Assembly (NCBI GenBank): GCA_024403795.1
Contig: JAKSRD010000003.1
Coordinates: forward strand, 1 to 64,000
Direction: 5' to 3'
Length of the DNA: 64,000 nucleotides
DNA from: Saccharofermentans sp.
Lineage (GTDB): Bacteria > Bacillota > Clostridia > Saccharofermentanales > Saccharofermentanaceae
Both the position numbers and the translations under genes were made by a program. This document shows, piece by piece, positions 4,684 to 64,000 of the stretch (position 1 is its first letter; every line of letters begins with the position of its first letter). Under the pieces are notes generated by a model, which searched no databases, was not told the origin of the DNA, and worked only from the letters and a program-made list of their open reading frames with translations.

Positions 4684-5703
4684 ATGTTTGACAGATACAG
4701 AGAGAGTAAGCTTTCCAAGCTGATGATGAATATATTCGTGATAACCGCTACGGTTACCATGGTTGTGTCTGTACTGGGATTTACCGTCTCGCAGACGGTC
4801 TTGGATCCCGGACATATAAAGAAAGTCATCCTTACGGACGAGAGCGTTGAACTGACATCGCAGGCGCTCAACGGCATGGTGCTCTCATCGTTGGAATTGA
4901 GCGGCACCGATTATGATGAGAATTTCTTTGATGACGAATTCGTTGAGTTCTTCATGGAGGACATGCTCGACACTATCCTGTTCGGCAGAAGCGATATCGA
5001 TACGGCTTATTACGATGACTATATCAATAACGATCTGTTCCCGAGGATCCATGAGATCACCGGTGTGGACATAACCGAACAGGATAAGTTGGGCATACTT
5101 GAGAAGATCTCGGGTACACTTCAGAATGAGACACTTAACAAAGTCGGAAACTTCGCGCTCAGAAGGATCGCAAACGGCTTCAAGAAGATCCGCGGCATTG
5201 TCATGGGCATCTCGATCGGCGCATTCTGTACATGCTGTCAGCTATATATGTTCACGTTCTTCGCATTCAGGAACAGGTTCATTGCGATAAAGGATTTCTT
5301 CTTATCCTGTGTCATCTGCTTCTCGTCCAATCTTGTTTTCTTCCTGATCAATCAGGTGATACTTAACGGAGTGATCGGGAAGCTGTCGGGCGCCATAGAT
5401 GCGGATATCATCAAAAGTTTTGAACCCGGCATCAGAGCCACTTTCAGGGGCGCGATCATAATCCTGGGAGCGCTGACACTGTTCTCCGTCATAAGCTTTA
5501 TCATCTCCGTTAAGCTCATGCGTAAGAGAGTTTTCGTTGTTGCCAGACTTACCAAAGAAGAGAAAAAGCAGCGAAAGGCCGAGCGTAAAGAGAGACGCCG
5601 CGCGCGTAAGCAGAGAAAACGCGACCGTAAGATCGCCAAGCGCGAGAAGAAGAGAATGAAGGCAGAAAGAAAGCAGCAGAAACGCGAGGCAAAGAAGAAA
5701 TGA
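4684..5703 (+). CDS. membrane protein with highly basic C-terminal tail
   Basis: 339 residues, not a recognised family. The ATG at 4684 follows GGAGAAGGG; an in-frame GTG at 4657 lies inside the upstream hairpin and is less likely. One transmembrane helix lies near residues 12-30, then an acidic extracellular-looking segment (about 45-140), then three helices at about 170-285. The last 45 residues are almost entirely Lys, Arg, Glu and Ala, a long charged cytoplasmic helix that could bind RNA, lipid head groups or ribosomes. The stop overlaps the GH127 start (ATGA), so the two are translationally coupled although no functional link is obvious. Confidence 0.7.
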   Translation: MFDRYRESKLSKLMMNIFVITATVTMVVSVLGFTVSQTVLDPGHIKKVILTDESVELTSQALNGMVLSSLELSGTDYDENFFDDEFVEFFMEDMLDTILFGRSDIDTAYYDDYINNDLFPRIHEITGVDITEQDKLGILEKISGTLQNETLNKVGNFALRRIANGFKKIRGIVMGISIGAFCTCCQLYMFTFFAFRNRFIAIKDFFLSCVICFSSNLVFFLINQVILNGVIGKLSGAIDADIIKSFEPGIRATFRGAIIILGALTLFSVISFIISVKLMRKRVFVVARLTKEEKKQRKAERKERRRARKQRKRDRKIAKREKKRMKAERKQQKREAKKK

Positions 5704-7598
5704 GAAAACAACATCAGATCTCCGAGAAAGCCTATCAGGCTTCAGGCTTCATCGGAAAGTATCAGGATCTTGTGGCAGACGTGGTCATACCGTGGCAGGA
5801 GAAGATCCTTTGGGACGAGGCGCCCGATACTGAGAAGAGCCACGCTATCGCCAATTACATAAACGCAGGCAAGGTCTTGCGCGGTGAAGATGCGGGAGAC
5901 GGCTTCTATGGAATGGTTTTCCAGGACAGCGATGTTGCCAAGTGGATCGAAGCTGCTTCCTTCTCCTTGATGAATAAATACGATCCGGAGCTTGATAAGG
6001 AGCTCGAAAAAGTCATCGGCTACATCTCTGCAGCCCAGGACAAAGACGGTTATCTTAACACCTATTTCACGATCAAAGATAAGGATAAACGCTGGACCAA
6101 TCTTCATGAAGCACATGAACTTTATGTCGCAGGTCACCTCATTGAAGCGGCTTGCGCCAACTATGAAGCGACCGGAAAGCGGGTCCTGCTTGATTGCATG
6201 ATCCGTAACATGGAGCATATCTACGACCACTTCATCACCAATGGCAATCCCGGTGTATCGGGACATCCCGAGATCGAGCTTGCTCTCATGAAGCTTTATA
6301 AGATCACCGGGAATCAACATGCACTTGAATTGTGCAGCCATTTCCTGAACGTTCGCGGAACGGATACTGAGTACTTTATCCGTGAAGCAGATAACCGAGA
6401 CTGGAGCGTATGGGGTTCAAATCCGAGAGATGAAGGCGATCTCGAATACCGTCAGGCAGATAAGCCCCTCCGTCAGCTCGAGAAAGCTACGGGTCACGCA
6501 GTAAGAGCCGTCTATCTTTATTCCGGAATGGCCGACTATGCCATCGAGACGGAGGATGAGGAGCTTATGTCTTCCTGCAAGCGTCTGTGGAACAATATCA
6601 CTCAGTGCAAGATGTATGTCACGGGCGGCATCGGTTCCACCGTACTCGGAGAAGCATTCACGGTTGATTATGATCTTCCTTCGGATACGGCTTATGCCGA
6701 GACATGCGCCTCCGTCGGATTGATGTTCTTCGCTTCGCGCATGCTCGAATATGATGTCTCCGGCGAATACGCTGATGTAATGGAACGTGCATTCTATAAC
6801 ACCGTTCTTGCAGGAATGGCTTTGGACGGCAAGACTTTCTTCTACGTAAATCCCTTGGAGGTCGATCCCGGAATATCGGGTAAAGCTCCTACCCATAAAC
6901 ACGATCTTCCCGTACGACCCAAATGGTATCAGTGCGCCTGCTGCCCGCCGAACGTTGCAAGACTCATAGAATCCTTCGGTAAGTATGCATACGGGGAGAA
7001 TGAAGATACGGCATTCTGCCATATGTTCGCAGCCGGTAAAGTAACTTTCGGAAACGGTCTTTCTCTTGAGTGTGAGACTGACTATCCGCACGACATGCAT
7101 ATTGCATATTCGGTTACGGGAACAGGAAAAATCGCGATACGCATTCCTTCCTGGAGCCGAAATACTGAAGTTGCCGTCGACGGTAAGATCATCACACCGG
7201 AGATGATCAAAGGCTATATGTATCTGAATGTTAACGGACCTGTCCGTATCGAATTGCATCTGGATGATGCGCCGGCCTTCATCTATCCCTCTTCTCGCAT
7301 TCCTAAGCTATCCGGAATGACTGCATTGAGAAGAGGTCCTCTTGTCTATTGCTTTGAAGGAGTCGATAACGGAAGTGTGAAGGCCTTGAGAATAGACAGG
7401 GATTCATCTCCCGAAGTTGCTTCTTTCTCGGAGGAACTGCAGGCCAATGTGCTAAAGGTAAAAGCGTTGCGCGAGGAAGACAGCGCTGAGCTTTATTCTG
7501 AAGTTCCTCCTGCCGCAGCTCCTTGTGAGGCGACGGCAGTTCCGTATTATACCTGGGGCAACCGCGGCGAGACCGAGATGCGCGTCTGGATGCAGTGA
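5700..7598 (+). CDS. GH127 beta-L-arabinofuranosidase-like (DUF1680) protein
   Basis: 632 residues, normal GH127 length, no signal peptide, so probably cytoplasmic. Key residues align with Bifidobacterium HypBA1 at a nearly constant offset: E318 in GGIGSTVLGEAF (HypBA1 E322), E334 and C336 in AETCAS (E338, C340), C414 and C415 in YQCACCPPN (nucleophile C417 and C418). The zinc-thiolate catalytic site is therefore complete. The family releases beta-L-arabinofuranose from arabino-oligosaccharides or hydroxyproline-linked glycans; exact specificity is not predictable. It overlaps the upstream membrane-protein gene by 4 nt. A long repeat array follows. Confidence 0.9.
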   Translation: MRKQHQISEKAYQASGFIGKYQDLVADVVIPWQEKILWDEAPDTEKSHAIANYINAGKVLRGEDAGDGFYGMVFQDSDVAKWIEAASFSLMNKYDPELDKELEKVIGYISAAQDKDGYLNTYFTIKDKDKRWTNLHEAHELYVAGHLIEAACANYEATGKRVLLDCMIRNMEHIYDHFITNGNPGVSGHPEIELALMKLYKITGNQHALELCSHFLNVRGTDTEYFIREADNRDWSVWGSNPRDEGDLEYRQADKPLRQLEKATGHAVRAVYLYSGMADYAIETEDEELMSSCKRLWNNITQCKMYVTGGIGSTVLGEAFTVDYDLPSDTAYAETCASVGLMFFASRMLEYDVSGEYADVMERAFYNTVLAGMALDGKTFFYVNPLEVDPGISGKAPTHKHDLPVRPKWYQCACCPPNVARLIESFGKYAYGENEDTAFCHMFAAGKVTFGNGLSLECETDYPHDMHIAYSVTGTGKIAIRIPSWSRNTEVAVDGKIITPEMIKGYMYLNVNGPVRIELHLDDAPAFIYPSSRIPKLSGMTALRRGPLVYCFEGVDNGSVKALRIDRDSSPEVASFSEELQANVLKVKALREEDSAELYSEVPPAAAPCEATAVPYYTWGNRGETEMRVWMQ

Positions 7599-7689
7599 AT
7601 CTGCGGGGGCGTGGCGGCGGCGGAGTCGGCGTGTTTTCGAGCTGCTGTAACATCGGTGCACGGTGGTGGTTCTATACAACAGGAATGTG

Positions 7690-8345
7690 TCGACATCATG
7701 CAAAACATAATGCAGCAGCATGAGGGATTGCATGAGATTAGCCCTCGAAAGTGCTCGAAAGTCATGCAGAACATCACGCGATTTCATATTCTTATCCCAA
7801 ATCTCTCAGATCAGCAAAATGGGATAACTTTTAGCGGATTATTTATCCCAAACTTCTCAAATTCGTAATTTGGGATAAGATTTCACAGCATTTTTATCCC
7901 AAACTCGCAAAAATACAACTTTTGGGATAAAAAACGAGCTCATTTCTTATCCCATTTTCGAGAAATTATCAATTTGGGATAAATCAACCTCATATTCTTA
8001 TCCCAAACTCACAAAAAAACGCCGTTTGGGATAAATCGGTTCGATATCCTTATCCCAAACCTGCAAAAAATCACCGTTTGGGATAAATGAGCTTTGACCG
8101 AAAATCACGCAGAATCTCACGCAGTATAGCGTGATGTTTTGCATGAGATTTGGCGGCGAAATGCCCGAAAATCAGGTAAAACATACGGCAGTACCCTGAG
8201 GTTTTACCTGACTTTTGACGGAAATGGCGTGAATATCAGGTAAAACATGCGGCGTGTACCTGAGGTTTTACCTGACTTTTGGCCTAAAACACACAAATCT
8301 CAGGTAAAACATACGGCATGTACCCTGAGATTTTACCTGACTTCA
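7690..8345. repeat. multi-family palindrome array
   Basis: About 650 bp of nearly continuous inverted repeats. 7697-7740 is an ATGCA-AAACAT type palindrome. 7782-8088 holds seven TTATCCCAAA/TTTGGGATAA hairpins with 10-20 nt loops. 8100-8150 has CACGC/GCGTG and GCATGA words. 8175-8345 holds three units with the outer word CAGGTA and its complement TACCTG around AAACAT/ATGTTT-like cores. 7782-8088 is repeated in inverted orientation at 26957-27261. No convincing coding frame or terminator with a T tract was seen. Function unknown. Confidence 0.88.
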
Positions 8346-8385
8346 AAATCAAAACCGGCACACTTATTAAGAATATTTAAGCTTA

Positions 8386-8394
8386 TGTTATAAT
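8386..8394 (+). promoter_or_regulatory. extended -10 promoter for the FecR-cyclase operon
   Basis: TGTTATAAT (TGn plus perfect -10) lies 36 bp before the FecR-like start. No clear -35 is seen, which is normal for extended -10 promoters. The same 9-mer recurs before the tRNA-Gln, GH9 and AI-2E genes. Confidence 0.55.
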
Positions 8395-8430
8395 TTCAGT
8401 TGAGACAGCAGATTCAGTGGAGGACGTTAT

Positions 8431-9660
8431 ATGGGCATTACTGACAGGATTATGAACATGTCTCTCAAGATAAAGATCATTATCTCAGCAGTTGCGGTTG
8501 CAGTAATAGCCGCAGTCGTTGTAGCTGTCTTTATGACGAAGGGCGGTTATCTGGCAACCACCATGCGTCTTCTGAGAGTCGAAGGAACTGTAAATATCGA
8601 AGATGCGAACGGCGGGTCAAAGCCTGTGATCGATAATATCAGATTCCAATCCGGCGATGCCCTGAATACGGGTGCTGACGGAATTGCTTCCGTCGGGCTT
8701 GATGATACAAAGATAATTACTCTCCAGAATAACAGCAGAGCTGAATTCTCCAAAAACAGAAAGCAGCTGGAACTCAAACTTACACAGGGTTCCTTGTTCT
8801 TCGAGGTTACTCAACACCTCAAGGATGATGAGACTTTTGAGATCAAGACATCCACTATGACTGCCGGTATCAGAGGTACATCCGGATATGTATTTTGTGA
8901 TGAAGCAGGCTTCTGGTCGCTGGCTCTTACTGACGGTGTGGTTTCAATTACGGCCACCAATCCTAAGACAGGAGAGACGAAGACCGCAGAGGTTCACGGC
9001 GGTCAGTTATTGAAGGTATATACTTTCGACAGAGAGGTTGACAGTGTTGATTTTACGCTTGAGAATTATCAACCGAATGAGCTTCCTTCAGACGTTCTTG
9101 CCGGGCTGAAGAATAATGATGCGCTTGTTGACAAGATCTGTGCTGATACCGGTTGGGATAAGGATAGATTCAAGGCCCTTATCGACAAGGCAGCAGAAGG
9201 AATGATGCCTAAGTCAACTCCGACACCGAGTTCAACACCTGCTGATACTCCTACGACGACGCCTAAGACTACGTCAACGCCGAAGCCGACTATTACGGGA
9301 ATACCTACATTGACGGTTACACCTACACCTGAACCGACAGAGGCTGCTGAGGCTACGACGAACACAGAGGATACAGAGGATACAGAGGAAGATGAGCCTG
9401 CTTCAACGACTGCAGCACCGACGTCCACACCTGTACCGACATCGGTGCCTGCGACCCCTACGCCGGAACCGACTACAACTGAGGAGGAGCCGACAGAAGT
9501 TGAACCGGATATACCTGAAGGACATGATGAACCTGAAGAACCGGATACACCTGAAGGACATGATGAACCTGAAGAACCGGATACACCGGAAGGACATGAT
9601 GAGCCTGAAGAACCTGATATACCGGAAGGTTACGATAATAACGACTTTGATAAGGGTTAA
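8431..9660 (+). CDS. FecR-domain membrane protein with Thr/Pro-rich tail
   Basis: 409 residues. One transmembrane helix (about 13-33) anchors an extracellular FecR-like beta domain at about 45-165 (FQSGDALNTGADGIASVGL, QGSLFFEV, TMTAGIRGTSGYV motifs). A low-complexity stalk from about 265 is rich in Thr, Pro and Glu and ends in imperfect 12-residue repeats of the type EPEEPDTPEGHD. RBS GGAGGA precedes the ATG. It is followed by a CHASE2 cyclase and an MBL-GGDEF protein. FecR domains sense envelope signals in iron transport and also occur next to CHASE2 cyclases. Here it may be an extracellular sensor or scaffold for the cyclase (inference). No sigma factor is nearby, so FecA-type regulation is unlikely. 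Confidence 0.8.
   Translation: MGITDRIMNMSLKIKIIISAVAVAVIAAVVVAVFMTKGGYLATTMRLLRVEGTVNIEDANGGSKPVIDNIRFQSGDALNTGADGIASVGLDDTKIITLQNNSRAEFSKNRKQLELKLTQGSLFFEVTQHLKDDETFEIKTSTMTAGIRGTSGYVFCDEAGFWSLALTDGVVSITATNPKTGETKTAEVHGGQLLKVYTFDREVDSVDFTLENYQPNELPSDVLAGLKNNDALVDKICADTGWDKDRFKALIDKAAEGMMPKSTPTPSSTPADTPTTTPKTTSTPKPTITGIPTLTVTPTPEPTEAAEATTNTEDTEDTEEDEPASTTAAPTSTPVPTSVPATPTPEPTTTEEEPTEVEPDIPEGHDEPEEPDTPEGHDEPEEPDTPEGHDEPEEPDIPEGYDNNDFDKG
9500..9640. repeat. in-frame 36-bp tandem repeats in the FecR-like gene
   Basis: About three to four copies of a 36-bp unit (containing GAACCGGATACACCTGAAGG) encode the PEEPDTPEGHDE stalk repeats. Such arrays tend to vary in copy number between strains and lengthen or shorten the surface stalk. 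Confidence 0.8.
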
Positions 9661-9774: not shown

Positions 9775-11580
9775 ATGAATGACCGGACTCGAAAATTGAT
9801 CACCGCATGCGTGTGGGCCACCTCGATTACAGTGCTGTGTGCACTGGGACTTTTCAGGCGTCCGGAGTTATGGCTCCAGGACGAATTGTTCCAGCAGGAG
9901 GAGTCTGTTGCAGGTGACGTAGTAATTATCGGAATTGATGAGAATGATATCCGCGAATTCGGTGCTTACAATTCATGGGACAGAAGCATCATGGCGAGAG
10001 CTCTTGAGGCGTTGGCTTCAGATCCTGACAATCTTCCTGCAGTGGTCGCCGTTGATGCCATGTATTCCGGTAATACCGATGCTGAGAATGATGCGAGACT
10101 TGCAGAAGCCGCAGCAAAGCTTCCGAATATCGTTATGGCTACTGAAGCTACTTTCGGTCAGAAGACTACTTTCGGAAGTGCATCGGTCATAATCGATGAT
10201 TTCGCGGTCCTTAATTACGAAGAACCATATGATGAACTGAAGGACGTTACGACTCAGGGACACATTAATGTGATGTATGACAGTGACGGTGTTGTACGTC
10301 ATGCAATCCTCTTCGTTGATCCTGAGAACGGACGAACATATTCCATGCAGTATGAAGCTGCAAGATTATATGCAGAGACCAAGGGTATGAATATAAAAAT
10401 GCCTCCGACGAATTCTCGCGGACAGTTTTATGTCTCTTATTCCGGCGGCCCGGGTGATTTCTATGACGGAATCAATCTGTCAGCTCTGATCAACGGAAGT
10501 GTTGATTCGAGTTATTTTGCAGGCAAGCTTGTTCTTATCGGACCTTATACGACCGGACTTCAGGATTCCTACAATACACCGATCGATAAAGGGCAGATGA
10601 TGTACGGCGTCGAATACCAGGCAAATGTCATTCAGTGCATCTTAGACGGTGACTACAAGGAAGATGCGCCGGATTATATCCAGATCGGGATCTTATGGAT
10701 CGTTTGTCTTGCGTTTTATCTTTTCTCCGGCAATCGAAAACTCAGATTCTCCATACCGCTTCTGCTTGCAGGAGAAGGTTTATCAATAGGTCTTTCACTC
10801 CTTCTTTATTCCGGCGGTCTTATCACACATGCATTGTGGATCCCGCTTGCACTTCTTGTTTTGTTTGTGGCAAGTGTTGCCGAGAACTATATCCGCGCGG
10901 CGATCGCAAGACAGAATGTTACCAAGACATTTGAGAGATATGTTGCTCCGAATGTTGTCGGGGAGATCCTTAAGGAAGGCACTGACAGCCTGAAGCTCGG
11001 AGGAAAAACAGTCGACATAGCCGTTCTGTTCGTGGATATCAGAGGTTTTACAACGATGTCCGAGAGACTTTCTCCTGAAGAAGTAGTACACATCCTGAAT
11101 CAATATCTCTCAATGACTAGTGCTTGCATCGAGAATCACGGAGGTACACTTGATAAGTTTATCGGTGATGCGACCATGGCTTTCTGGGGTGCGCCGATCG
11201 CCGATGAAGATTCTGTCTATCACGCTTGTCAGACTGCATTGGATATTGTTGCAGGTGCAGAGGCTCTGTCTGCCAAGTTAAAGGAAGAAATCAATGAGGA
11301 GATACATGTCGGTATAGGCGTCAATTACGGACCGGCAGTTGTCGGCAACATGGGTTCCGAGAGAAGAATGGATTACACAGCTATCGGTGATACCGTAAAT
11401 ACATCAGCAAGACTTGAAGCAAATGCTCCTGCAAGTACTGTATATATCAGTCGTGCGGTAGCTGACAAACTTGGTGACAGAATGAGATATGAGCCGTTGG
11501 ATAAGCCCATTAAGCTTAAGGGTAAAGCTGACGGATTTGAGATATTAAGACTTATCGGAACGGAGGAGCGGATATGCTAA
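9775..11580 (+). CDS. CHASE2-domain class III adenylate/guanylate cyclase
   Basis: 601 residues. An N-terminal transmembrane helix (about 9-27) precedes a CHASE2 extracellular sensor (about 30-300: VVIIGIDENDIREFG, VVAVDAMYS, GKLVLIGPYTTGLQD). Two or three helices lie at about 302-365 and the class III cyclase domain at about 385-590. Metal ligands are D421 (LFVDIRGF) and D465 (FIGDATMAFWG); YTAIGDTVNTSARLE matches adenylate-type family members. No strong RBS is visible and TACAAT lies 10 nt upstream, so the start or leader may be unusual. Probably makes cAMP in response to an outside signal; cAMP versus cGMP cannot be settled here. It overlaps the next gene by 7 nt. Confidence 0.9.
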   Translation: MNDRTRKLITACVWATSITVLCALGLFRRPELWLQDELFQQEESVAGDVVIIGIDENDIREFGAYNSWDRSIMARALEALASDPDNLPAVVAVDAMYSGNTDAENDARLAEAAAKLPNIVMATEATFGQKTTFGSASVIIDDFAVLNYEEPYDELKDVTTQGHINVMYDSDGVVRHAILFVDPENGRTYSMQYEAARLYAETKGMNIKMPPTNSRGQFYVSYSGGPGDFYDGINLSALINGSVDSSYFAGKLVLIGPYTTGLQDSYNTPIDKGQMMYGVEYQANVIQCILDGDYKEDAPDYIQIGILWIVCLAFYLFSGNRKLRFSIPLLLAGEGLSIGLSLLLYSGGLITHALWIPLALLVLFVASVAENYIRAAIARQNVTKTFERYVAPNVVGEILKEGTDSLKLGGKTVDIAVLFVDIRGFTTMSERLSPEEVVHILNQYLSMTSACIENHGGTLDKFIGDATMAFWGAPIADEDSVYHACQTALDIVAGAEALSAKLKEEINEEIHVGIGVNYGPAVVGNMGSERRMDYTAIGDTVNTSARLEANAPASTVYISRAVADKLGDRMRYEPLDKPIKLKGKADGFEILRLIGTEERIC

Positions 11581-13283
11581 AGTTTCTCGGAAGAGGCTCT
11601 GCATTCACGGATGAGCATAACAGTGCCTGCTTTGTGTCGAATGATGAATTAGTCATTATGGATTGTTCCATGACGACATTTAAGACTCTTAATGAGCTTA
11701 ATATGACTCTCTATGAGCGTGTATATGTGTTGGTTACCCATACTCACGGCGATCACGTGAGCGGTATCGGCATGCTGATCGATCTGCTGCACTTTTCAGT
11801 TAAGACTCCGATCACGATCGTTGCACCATCTTCGGAAGTTGAAGCAGATCTGTTCTATCTTCTCTCGAGGATAGAAGGCTGCAGAAGTGACTGGTACGAT
11901 CTTGTCTCGGCAGATGAACTGGATAAGGAATGGATGATCTGTCCGATACTTACCACGCATACCGAAGAATTGGCAGGGAAGTGTTTTGGTTACTGTCTTG
12001 AGATCAACGGCAACAGAGTCGTATTTACCGGTGACACCAATACGCTCTTGCCGTTTGAGAAATACTTGGGACGCGGAGCTTATCTTTATACGGAGATGTC
12101 GGCTTATAAGTCTCCGGTACATCTTTATTGCGTAGACATGAAAGACAAGATCAAGACGTTGTGTGATTCAGGTGTTCATGTGTATCTCATGCATCTTGAT
12201 GATGAGAAACGCATAGCTCAGACCATGGAAGGAACGGGTGCGGAATTGGCACCGCTTATGCAAGGAGGACTTATGATGGAAGATACAGAGAAGATGCTTA
12301 ACGGTATTTACGACATCACTGACAGCTTATACAAGAACATGTGCATGAACAGTACCTCAGATCACAATCTTTTATTTTCTTATCTGACCGATCTCGGAAA
12401 GACTATTGTTGATGCAGACAGAGCAAGCTTCTGGAAATGGGATAAGCGTAAGGGACAGATATGGACAATGTCTGCGACCGGTGTCGACAAGATCATCATT
12501 CCGGACGACAAAGGACTTGTAAGCAAAGCATTGAGAACAAAGAAGACTGTGGTTACGAACGATCCGTATAATGATCCCGATTTCAATAAGGAAGTAGATA
12601 TCAAGACAGGATATACAACAAAGTCAGTTCTTACTCTTCCCGTAGCTGACATTAACGGTGATTTTATCGGTGCACTTCAACTTATTAACAAAAACGATCC
12701 GGCAGGTTTTGATGAAGTCGAAGATCCCAAGAAACTCTCTCTTGCTGCACTTGTCTGCGGTATAGCGCTTGAGTCTGAGATGTTCCTGGAAGACTCTCAT
12801 CATGATAAGCTCACGGGTCTCAAGAACAGAATGGGATTCTACTATGACTTCAGTAAGAGATATAAAGATTATCTTGTTCCCGGCAGTGATAAGAGGATGT
12901 CTCTGTTCATCTGTGACATCGATAAATTCAAGCGTGTCAATGATACCTATGGTCACAATGCCGGCGATGATGTTCTCGCATTTACCGCACATCTGGTCGA
13001 GTCCTGCTGCGGCGAGAATGATATGGTCTACAGATGGGGCGGTGAAGAGTTTGTCATGGTAATGCGCGGTGCTGAACTTGATGAAGCGGTTCGAAAAGCG
13101 GAAGAGATCAGAGTCAAACTCGAAGGCTCAGATATCGATGCAGACGGAACCACGATCAGATGTACGCTCAGCTTCGGTTGTGCACTTTTCGATCCGTCAA
13201 AGACGATAGAGGAAAATGTCAGCTCAGCTGATGAGAAACTCTATACTGCCAAAGAGACCGGAAGAAACAAAGTTTGCTTCTGA
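11574..13283 (+). CDS. metallo-beta-lactamase fold - GAF - GGDEF protein
   Basis: 569 residues with three domains. An MBL-fold hydrolase (about 1-225) has the metal motif H56-x-H58-x-D60-H61 and a later FTGDTN. A GAF-like sensor spans about 260-405. A GGDEF domain spans about 415-569 with an intact G489-G-E-E-F493 site and FICDIDKFKRVNDTYGH. The inhibitory I-site (RxxD five residues before GGEEF) reads GEND, so the Arg is missing and product inhibition through that site is unlikely. Predicted diguanylate cyclase whose MBL domain may hydrolyse a phosphodiester or other ligand. Overlap with the cyclase gene suggests linked cAMP/c-di-GMP signalling. Confidence 0.88.
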   Translation: MLKFLGRGSAFTDEHNSACFVSNDELVIMDCSMTTFKTLNELNMTLYERVYVLVTHTHGDHVSGIGMLIDLLHFSVKTPITIVAPSSEVEADLFYLLSRIEGCRSDWYDLVSADELDKEWMICPILTTHTEELAGKCFGYCLEINGNRVVFTGDTNTLLPFEKYLGRGAYLYTEMSAYKSPVHLYCVDMKDKIKTLCDSGVHVYLMHLDDEKRIAQTMEGTGAELAPLMQGGLMMEDTEKMLNGIYDITDSLYKNMCMNSTSDHNLLFSYLTDLGKTIVDADRASFWKWDKRKGQIWTMSATGVDKIIIPDDKGLVSKALRTKKTVVTNDPYNDPDFNKEVDIKTGYTTKSVLTLPVADINGDFIGALQLINKNDPAGFDEVEDPKKLSLAALVCGIALESEMFLEDSHHDKLTGLKNRMGFYYDFSKRYKDYLVPGSDKRMSLFICDIDKFKRVNDTYGHNAGDDVLAFTAHLVESCCGENDMVYRWGGEEFVMVMRGAELDEAVRKAEEIRVKLEGSDIDADGTTIRCTLSFGCALFDPSKTIEENVSSADEKLYTAKETGRNKVCF

Positions 13284-18618: not shown

Positions 18619-18668
18619 GACAAAACCGATAACCTTATAAGTGTTTATAAGATTATCGGTTTTGCGCA
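18619..18668 (-). terminator. hairpin between uxuA and uxuB
   Basis: Strong inverted repeat with AAAACCGATAA and TTATCGGTTTT arms in the uxuA-uxuB gap. In the minus direction it is followed by a short T/G run. It could be a partial terminator or an RNA processing/stability hairpin that sets the uxuA:uxuB ratio. Confidence 0.6.
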
Positions 18669-19879: not shown

Positions 19880-19980
19880 TGAAATTGATGTTTTTCTTCT
19901 TTTCGAGAAGTGCTCGAAAAGCACATTTTAAGGCGTTTCCCTGATTGTCTGACACAACGGGGAAACAGGATAGATAATAT
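19880..19980. repeat. small inverted repeats in the uxuA-membrane gene gap
   Basis: Two short hairpins: GTGCT-CGAAA-AGCAC (about 19907-19921) preceded by TTTTCGAG, and GTTTCCC..GGGAAAC (about 19935-19966). The CGAAAA spacer word resembles the array elements elsewhere. Role unknown. Confidence 0.5.
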
Positions 19981-26820: not shown

Positions 26821-26852
26821 GGCATTCCGATGTAAATCGGAATGCCTTTTTT
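26821..26852 (+). terminator. intrinsic terminator of the ABC importer operon
   Basis: Perfect 11-bp stem GGCATTCCGAT / ATCGGAATGCC around GTAA, then TTTTTT. Confidence 0.95.
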
Positions 26853-26902
26853 ACGGATACGTGAAGACAGATTTTGGCGGGCTCGTATCAGGCCGGATCT
26901 CA

Positions 26903-27350
26903 CGCTAAACATCACGCTACTGCGTGATGTTTAGCGTGATTTTCGGGCAAGTCCTATTTATCCCAAACTGTGATTCTTTGCAGGTTTGGGATAAGAATAT
27001 GAGGCTGATTTATCCCAAACGGCGTTATTTTGCGAGTTTGGGATAAGAATATGAGGCTGATTTATCCCAAATTGATAATTTCTCGAAAATGGGATAAGAA
27101 ATGAGCTCGTTTTTTATCCCAAAAGTTGTATTTTTGCGAGTTTGGGATAAAAATGCTGTGAAATCTTATCCCAAATTGCGAATTTGAGAAGTTTGGGATA
27201 AATAATCCGCTAAAATTTATCCCATTTTGCTGATCTGTGAGATTTGGGATAAGAATATGAAATCGCGTGGGTTCTGCGTTATTTTCGTGCACTTTAGGCC
27301 AAATCTCACGCTAAGTATCACGCTACCGCGTGAGGTTCTGCGTGATGTTC
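26903..27350. repeat. palindrome array, partly an inverted copy of the 7.8-8.1 kb array
   Basis: 26903-26941 is a near-perfect nested palindrome (outer and inner word CACGC and complement GCGTG around AAACAT/ATGTTT). 26957-27261 is the reverse complement of 7782-8088 with only about a dozen differences and a 2-nt length change, again seven TTATCCCAAA/TTTGGGATAA hairpins. 27304-27345 has more CACGC/GCGTG words. Non-coding; it fills the space between convergent operons. Confidence 0.88.
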
Positions 27351-27808
27351 GAGCGTTTTAAGCCGGATCTCATACTGATTGTTCTTCAGAGCGGTCTTTT
27401 CAGCGGTTTGCGGATCTTCAACACAGGACGTATAACGATGAGTATCACAAAAGTCATTTTGCTTTCAATCAATTTCCAAGAAGCGGGAGAGTCCGCATAT
27501 TGCATAGAAAACAGATCGTTGTTGCCAGAATCCGCTTATTAGCTTAATTAAAGCAAGAATAGATAATGCCATTAGGCACAACGAGAGTGCTTATGGATTA
27601 TAGATGACATGCAAACATCTCGGAAGAAACATAAAATGTCGCGTGTTAATTATTACTGTGAATGACATGCAAACGGAAAGCTGTAAACGCTAAACTGAAA
27701 AGTCGGTTGTTTGGATGACATTGACGCCGATGTGTCATCTTCAATCTTCAAGATAGAGTTTGGGGATGACGCTTAATAGCGTGAAGAAAGACCGCAAATC
27801 TTGACTGA
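27351..27808. other. intergenic region without recognisable gene
   Basis: AT-rich stretch between the array and the convergent uxaC gene. I see no plausible ORF with an RBS, no tRNA and no strong terminator with a T tract. A GATGACATGCAAAC-like word occurs at about 27604 and, as AATGACATGCAAAC, at about 27660; otherwise nothing stands out. Confidence 0.6.
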
Positions 27809-38121: not shown

Positions 38122-38195
38122 TGCCGAATTGTGTAACGGTAGCACACCGGTCTCTGACACCGTTTGTCAAGGTTCGAATCCTTGTTCGGCAGCCA
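38122..38195 (+). tRNA. tRNA-Gln (anticodon CUG)
   Basis: Full cloverleaf by hand: acceptor TGCCGAA/TTCGGCA plus G73 and encoded CCA; D stem GTGT/GCAC with loop AACGGTA; anticodon stem CCGGT/ACCGT with loop CTCTGAC reading CUG for CAG; T stem CAAGG/CCTTG with TTCGAAT. The outermost anticodon pair is a C-U mismatch. A terminator follows. Confidence 0.95.
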
Positions 38196-54460: not shown

Positions 54461-54800
54461 TGTGTCGCCAATGCCGATTTTTGAGGTCGGGCGACACAGT
54501 ATTCCGGATACTTTTACATTGTCTCTACCGGAAGGAACGTTCAGGTGCTTTTTGTAGTAGAATCCGTTTTTTCTCCTGAGAAATCCCAAAACGCGGCACT
54601 CCGGGACTTTTTTTGCTGTAAAAAATGTATTTTGTCCCTGAAAAGTCCCGCAATGCTTCAATCACTTCCACATTGTAGTTGTAATCACTTCTGAATAGTT
54701 GAGTGACCGATTAGTGACTGTTTGAGCTGAAATTCGACAACAAATACTCACTTTTGGCTGAAAATGACTATTTGTTGCACTTTTGAGAGGAATTTTGTCA
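54461..54800. repeat. mixed palindrome array downstream of the U32 gene
   Basis: Three stem words follow one another: TGTGTCGCC/GGGCGACACA (54462-54502), GGGAC/GTCCC (about 54590-54652) and GTGAC/GTCAC with CAACAAATACTCA/TGACTATTTGTTG (about 54700-54810). Same arrangement (stem, short spacer, inverted stem) as the other arrays, again with different words. No coding frame with an RBS. Confidence 0.75.
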
Positions 54801-63489: not shown

Positions 63490-63519
63490 TAGAACTGACT
63501 TAAGTCGATAATTTTTTAA

Positions 63520-63563
63520 GTTGCCTCACAAGTGATTGATTCACTGTGAGGCAACTTTTTTTC
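63520..63563 (+). terminator. terminator after the GGGtGRT gene
   Basis: Long stem AAGTTGCCTCACA / TGTGAGGCAACTT with TTCACT/AGTGA-type interior pairing, then TTTTTTT. Confidence 0.93.
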
Positions 63564-63607
63564 TGCGGAGAAAGGGCCGGAAGTGGGGAGAGCGGTGTGT
63601 GTGGAAT

Positions 63608-64000
63608 ATCAGGTAAAACATGCGGCATGTACCTGATGTTTTACCTGACTTTTGGCTGGAAAGGCCCGAACATCATGCAAAACATGCTGCACCTGCATTA
63701 TGTTTGGCATGAATTTAGCTCCCCAACGCCGAAAAATGATGCAAAACCTGCTGCACCTGCATTATGTTTAGCATGAATTTAGCTCCCCAACGCCGAAAAA
63801 TAATGCAGAACCTGCTGCACCTGCATGATGTTTTGCATGAGGTTTGCACGACCGTCTCCCTTAAGCATCTGCCAAATATACCATCAAGTACCGCCGAGAA
63901 GCTTTTTTCGAAGCCTCTGCCCAATACACCATCATGAACCGCCCTGAGCTTTCTCCGCGAGCCTCGACCAAATACTTCCTCAAGAACCGCCGGCAGGTAC
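63608..64000. repeat. palindromic and tandem repeats at the right edge
   Basis: 63608-63650 is a CAGGTAAAACAT..ATGTTTTACCTG unit like those at 8175-8345. 63672-63845 contains three units of an ATGCA/TGCAT palindrome (AAACAT..ATGTTT-like core) separated by a spacer AGCTCCCCAACGCCGAAAAA, period about 66 bp. 63868-64000 has a degenerate 50-bp unit (CCAAATA-ACCATCAAG-ACCGCCG) in three copies. The array continues past the window. Confidence 0.8.

Follow-up and report, generated by a model that had tools for sequence, protein, structure and literature searches.

Regularly spaced intergenic repeats of alternating orientation are known from enterobacteria and Stenotrophomonas as BIME-2/REP arrays, and BIMEs form hybrid arrays, carry species-specific words, lie mostly between co-directional or convergent genes and are, like REPs, known to be bound by IHF, gyrase and Pol I (PMC2817692, PMC3733652). 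The REPs themselves are palindromes of 20-40 bp. Many bear a GTAG or CGTC tag, their stems show complementary changes, and many accompany RAYT genes (PMC2817692, PMC3733652). The arrays that we describe here are likewise regularly spaced intergenic repeats of alternating orientation, and BIMEs, with which they have both the layout and the hybrid arrays in common, are the closest known kind. Unlike REPs, however, they are built from half-sites that are non-palindromic words of 8-10 bp, with near-fixed spacers and whole-turn spacing: TTATCCCA, GCAACAGA, TTACTTAC and ACCGTCC are palindromic only as pairs, and the 8-mer of TTACGTAC, though it contains GTAC, is no palindrome either. We looked for GTAG or CGTC tags up to 8 nt from the arms and found them in 1 of 49 TTATCCC, 0 of 10 CAGGTA and 2 of 25 GCAACAG units. 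In a further difference from REPs, TTATCC arms vary independently, whereas the words of a second class of units with a 64-bp period (see below) do change in both arms together.

Other known systems share fewer of these features. The dRS3 arrays of Neisseria (NIME) likewise string together short inverted repeats with variable sequence in the gaps, but they use one word and many longer spacers, in contrast to the many words and fixed short spacers found here. Plasmid centromeres such as sopC consist of tandem units of ~43 bp, each an inverted-repeat site that is bound cooperatively; these occupy one locus per replicon, whereas the present arrays occupy dozens of chromosomal loci with many words. 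CRISPR arrays differ in that the repeats studied here alternate in orientation and their spacers reappear from copy to copy in an unchanged order. An apparent intergenic CRISPR-type direct repeat does exist in the source genome, distinct from the array repeats: the 36-mer GTTTTAGCTCTCGGACATTCATTGGTAGAATAAGAC, which we pieced together by eye from overlapping 10-mers, each present in 33-37 copies in the examined part. None of the papers that we searched describes arrays like those reported here.

The window, a stretch of 64,000 nucleotides, comes from contig C23 of the source genome (G000; 1.72 Mb, 64% complete), which belongs to a rumen-type gut bacterium. Alternating inverted words run across its intergenic region 7690-8345, which is flanked by plus-strand genes at 5700-7598 and 8431-9660. 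Six TTATCCC palindromes of 36-37 bp (7792-7827, 7843-7878, 7894-7930, 7947-7982, 7998-8034 and 8050-8086) make up an array at 7792-8086 with a period of 51-53 bp and one half-site per 26 bp in alternating orientation, and three CAGGTA palindromes (8172-8211, 8236-8275 and 8300-8340) follow with a period of 64 bp and a word step of 32 bp. A preliminary description of the region had counted seven copies of one word next to three of another; the three were recovered, and the seven are six. Units of the 64-bp class, which hold up to four word copies that all change word together, lie on either side of the TTATCCC array: a CATGC unit at 7694-7739, a CATGC/CACGC half unit at 7756-7785 that is cut where the array begins, a hybrid unit at 8099-8152 with CACGC on the left and CATG as the outer right arm, and CAGGT units at 8166-8217, 8231-8281 and 8294-8343. 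Another hybrid unit is found at C23:75084.

Several further arrays lie in the window. The region 26897-27308 is 91% identical to the inverted block around 7792-8086; it begins with a unit carrying four copies of CACGC (26897-26945) and contains a TTATCCC array (26958-27252) that is an inverted copy of the first one, with a second CACGC unit at 27300-27351. The intrinsic terminator of the upstream gene (26821-26846, plus strand) precedes it, just as a terminator hairpin (63518-63557) precedes a 64-bp-class array at 63604-63846 that has CAGGT once and then CATGC three times. At 3-279, TTCTGTTGC/GCAACAGAA half-sites form an alternating, partly direct, array with a step of ~26 bp and copies at C20, C24 and C26. 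Two palindromes stand alone here and recur as arrays elsewhere in the genome, namely a 36-bp ACCGATA...TTATCGGT palindrome at 18625-18660 (74-bp arrays at C4 and C22) and a GGGACTTTT/AAAAGTCCC palindrome at 54602-54650 (61-bp arrays at C4, C5, C6 and C16). We place the 64-bp and 61-bp classes with the other arrays provisionally, by layout and spacing only. Among the words listed in the preliminary description, CTGTTGC (1-283), ATGCA/CACGC and GGGAC are indeed repeat families, while TGTGTCGCC proved to be a single hairpin (54461-54498) and GTGAC palindromes form no arrays; taken as one family, the list mixes TTATCCC/GCAACAG, the 64-bp CAGGT/CATGC/CACGC class and unrelated single hairpins.

Using alternating octamers and no prior word, we searched 1.08 Mb of G000 and ~1 Mb of its relatives, partial metagenome-assembled genomes, for lattices of a word W and its reverse complement (W, rcW, W, rcW at near-even steps), and the word families reported here were found by this lattice-seeking method. 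The examined part of G000 contained 39 loci with at least three alternating words, compared with 1-2 in second-order Markov sequence, and 26 loci with at least four, compared with none in Markov sequence of the same length; a search for the reversed pattern gave no matches. Three of the 39 loci overlap open reading frames, and several are weak, having just three words. The arrays are real, and chance falls far short of accounting for them. The principal families of G000 are TTATCCC, GCAACAG, CAGGT/CATGC/CACGC, AAAGTCCC and ACCGATA, and many of the arrays are at contig ends, as expected because they are repeats. A broad distribution was rejected: only three of 115 genomes of the family had more than one match (48 in G000, 27 in G051 and 5 in G034); real TTATCCC lattices among 60 loci from the genome collection were confined to RUG12201 (G034), of the same genus, and among 59 genomes of the genus CAGGTA and CTGTTGC were seen in G000 alone. 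Phages were rejected as carriers, as none of the viral loci that matched the pattern contains a lattice of this kind.

The layout itself consists of a word, an AT-rich spacer of near-fixed length, in which an A/T tract usually occupies the dyad, and the inverted word. It carries ten words across several genomes of the genus, all with near-fixed palindrome length and whole-turn spacing. These are TTATCCC, GCAACAGA, TTACTTAC, TTACGTAC, ACCGATA, ACCGTCC (in G054, G026 and G045), ATATCGTT (in G051), TTACTTGC and ACCGACTA (both in G054) and CGACGGAC (in G031), with TTACTTAC and TTACGTAC adjoining within one array in G045 and G026. The suggestion of one scaffold with swappable words gains support, and the comparison of species favors it more strongly than the window does: searching related genomes for the layout brought up new words in G051, G045, G026, G054 and G031. 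For most words, the dyad-aligned consensus runs from the word, often through AAA, to an A/T tract close to the dyad and on, often through TTT, to the inverted word. Because units are oriented by their A/T tract in this consensus, we tested the tract with units not oriented, against dinucleotide shuffles of the spacers, for eight of the ten words (TTACTTGC and CGACGGAC have too few units). Seven of the eight were enriched: TTACGTAC (22/23 versus 6.5 in shuffles), ACCGTCC (21/22 versus 8.1), TTACTTAC (60/77 versus 24.5), TTATCCC (41/73 versus 20.5), GCAACAGA (17/34 versus 3.3), ATATCGTT and ACCGACTA; the excess for ACCGATA (6/10 versus 4.1) was not significant. The CAGGT/CATGC/CACGC class lacks the tract altogether (0/26), so that there are two scaffolds.

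Palindrome length is nearly invariant within most families. With spacers of 16-30 allowed, each of the 76 distinct TTACTTAC units measures 39 bp, all 22-23 TTACGTAC units are 40 bp, and TTATCC palindromes are 36 bp in 15 of 15 cases in G034 and 37 bp in 27 of 28 in G051; GCAACAG units, at 33-37 bp, are the exception. Mean spacer identity is just 0.44-0.58 in most families, and TTACTTAC spacers differ at a mean of 10.4 of 23 positions. Minimum spanning trees of units contained 276 + 108 substitutions and no indels, where 6-12 length changes would be expected from the intergenic indel:substitution ratio of 0.03 between G045 and G026 (3:100, a small sample).

The distances between palindromes are in phase with the DNA helix. 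With 10.5 bp taken as one turn, 99.6% of the 239 spacings, which cover 13 words, deviate from a whole number of turns by no more than a quarter turn (R 0.91 at 10.5 bp, phase near 0). As array units are related by duplication, these spacing counts are not independent and per-family tests, which cover few families chosen for forming lattices, are safer: one period per family gave R 0.84 (12 families, p ~2e-4), and one vote per word and distance gave R 0.88 (n=27, phase 0.00, p 8e-10), the votes being not fully independent. Within one word, spacings also jump by one or two whole turns, from 63 to 74 to 84 bp for TTACGTAC and from 63-64 to 73-74 bp for ACCGTCC, with none between.

Compared base by base within word families, the two arms of a palindrome show no covariation. 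The arms of TTATCC units are complementary at positions 7-13 as often as expected of independent arms (for example, 8 versus 7.8 expected at position 7 in G034 and 1 versus 6.9 at position 10 in G051); in TTACTTAC units, position 10 alone covaries (66 versus 40.8), extending the word, and positions 9 and 11-17 do not. It had been proposed that the shared scaffold would fail if stem words did not covary, but this lack of base-by-base covariation argues against a paired stem and not against the scaffold. RNA stems were rejected on these grounds, and the idea of an RNA-binding family finds no support. Fixed length, non-covarying arms and phasing all favor a DNA-protein over an RNA reading.

Words are also better conserved than the DNA between them. 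In G045 and G026, which are ~96% identical and have arrays at the same places that differ by whole units, we compared six orthologous array pairs and found 3/448 substitutions in words and 52/1326 in spacers (Fisher p 2e-4), with 208/4120 in the flanks. This measurement on one species pair could reflect either purifying selection or recombinational homogenization, as either could yield the substitution pattern. Outside arrays, the words are neither avoided nor clearly enriched. Most arrays are downstream of genes, and divergent gene pairs flank only 2 of 25, compared with 56 of 233 control gaps >150 bp. By eye, the neighboring genes are of no common type, many of them appearing housekeeping-like by translation; a factor gene adjoining the arrays was considered and rejected, as the neighbors look unrelated when their translations are judged by eye.

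Taken together, length, arms, phase, word conservation and the position of arrays behind terminators point to double-stranded DNA that is read by protein. We believe, with a probability of about 0.6, that each array is a row of sites on double-stranded DNA for putative symmetric word-reading proteins. A symmetric, sequence-specific protein, either a dimer or a larger assembly, would bind each palindrome of 35-40 bp and read its two words with two domains. The intervening duplex, which in most cases has an A/T tract at its dyad and is otherwise unconstrained in sequence, would be bent or spanned and not read. Palindromes whole turns apart would place the complexes on the same helix face, where they may stack cooperatively; this would explain why none of the 49 TTATCC palindromes in the examined part of G000 is solitary. 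Different words would then belong to related proteins with an altered recognition surface, with the word of an array following a change in recognition as units are duplicated in tandem, lost and exchanged. A role in structuring the chromosome or operon ends, or in restraining supercoils or read-through, is a guess. We suggest only tentatively that phased, fixed-length, A/T-centered palindromes and a fast-diversifying DNA-binding family, with its own word per species or array, constitute a new class of chromosomal element, which would be a bacterial analogue of satellite DNA coevolving with its binding protein. The usual explanations for intergenic repeats of bacteria are hairpins and transposase substrates; the constraint here is on the DNA helix, and words are swapped on a constant layout from one close species to the next. 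Two questions become testable: the identity of the protein family that reads the words, together with how its specificity keeps pace with dozens of sites, and the effect of such a phased row on the chromosome.

It is less probable, though worth serious consideration, that the arrays are non-autonomous mobile DNA resembling BIMEs or REPINs, with words serving as transposase or recombinase sites and different words belonging to different enzymes. This would still imply word-specific DNA binding, with the benefit going to the element. Whole blocks have been copied: a ~400-bp block, comprising a TTATCCC array with CACGC flanks, occurs at C1, C17 (two) and C23 (two) in copies that are 91-95% alike and keep the unit order, with a diverged version at C6. 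At several loci of G000 (C10:33989-34266, C14:38909, C15:1-136, C2:11-193 and C3:21278-21420), CAGGT palindromes enclose a GCAACAG array at the same point, and the seemingly identical junction looks like one insertion followed by composite copying. Intergenic placement and hybrid arrays are also as in BIMEs (PMC2817692). However, the ends of the ~400-bp block vary among copies with no clear target duplication, there are no solitary units, half-sites are not palindromic, and arrays keep their orthologous positions in G045 and G026. A comparison of these two genomes yielded no clean empty site, the arrays being common to both or the region rearranged. RAYT-driven REPINs were rejected because the Y1 transposase (Y1_Tnp, PF01797) was not found in four of five genomes, namely G000 (at 64% completeness), G051, G031 (100%) and G045 (98%); one is present in G034 (G034:C114:6976-7332). 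If the word-reading protein is itself a transposase, the BIME-like and binding-site readings merge.

We consider it improbable that the arrays are neutral satellite DNA, in which template switching, slippage and gene conversion keep palindromes and words alike with no binding factor. Units have been gained and lost between G045 and G026, the words of the 64-bp class change in concert and blocks are wholly shared, all as this explanation would have it, but it also predicts arms corrected to complementarity, which are not seen, and it does not account for the fixed spacer length, the whole-turn spacing or the A/T tract at the dyad. Least credible are RNA hairpins at operon ends acting as terminators, mRNA stabilizers or RNA-protein sites, for despite a very stable predicted fold of the array RNA (z -10.4) and the scarcity of divergent gene pairs around arrays, the arms do not covary, fixed length and helical phasing would be meaningless for RNA, the layout is strand-symmetric, the arrays at 26897 and 63604 are already behind a terminator hairpin and no array in the window matched Rfam 15 at the gathering score (the only match being a tRNA at 38122). 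The palindromes, with loops of 16-24 nt, also lack the short-loop GC-rich stem and T run of an intrinsic terminator, and terminator-like sites in 7500-8500 number 1 versus 1.2 in shuffles.

The spacer motif TTCTCGAAAA, which the preliminary description had noted in many spacers, is present in some units, but it was rejected as sole evidence for a scaffold because the octamer CTCGAAAA that it contains is enriched genome-wide on both strands, being over-represented about fivefold in G000 (367 seen versus 72 expected). Per 100 kb, CTCGAAAA is found 84 times in intergenic DNA outside arrays and 210 times inside arrays; one reading frame largely accounts for the genic copies, but not for the intergenic ones, and the octamer, of which one example lies at 19899-19921 of the window, has no extended conserved context. 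A further small lattice of GACTGAAC, with spacings of 24, 12 and 28, is common to G045 and G026 (L287:12720-12832 and L288:9866-10032). Next to the TTATCCC and CAGGTA palindromes of the window, the gene at 8431-9660 encodes a FecR/Lsa33-like protein, and near it 11574-13283 encodes a protein that joins an RNase Z-like metallo-beta-lactamase N-terminus to a GGDEF C-terminus.
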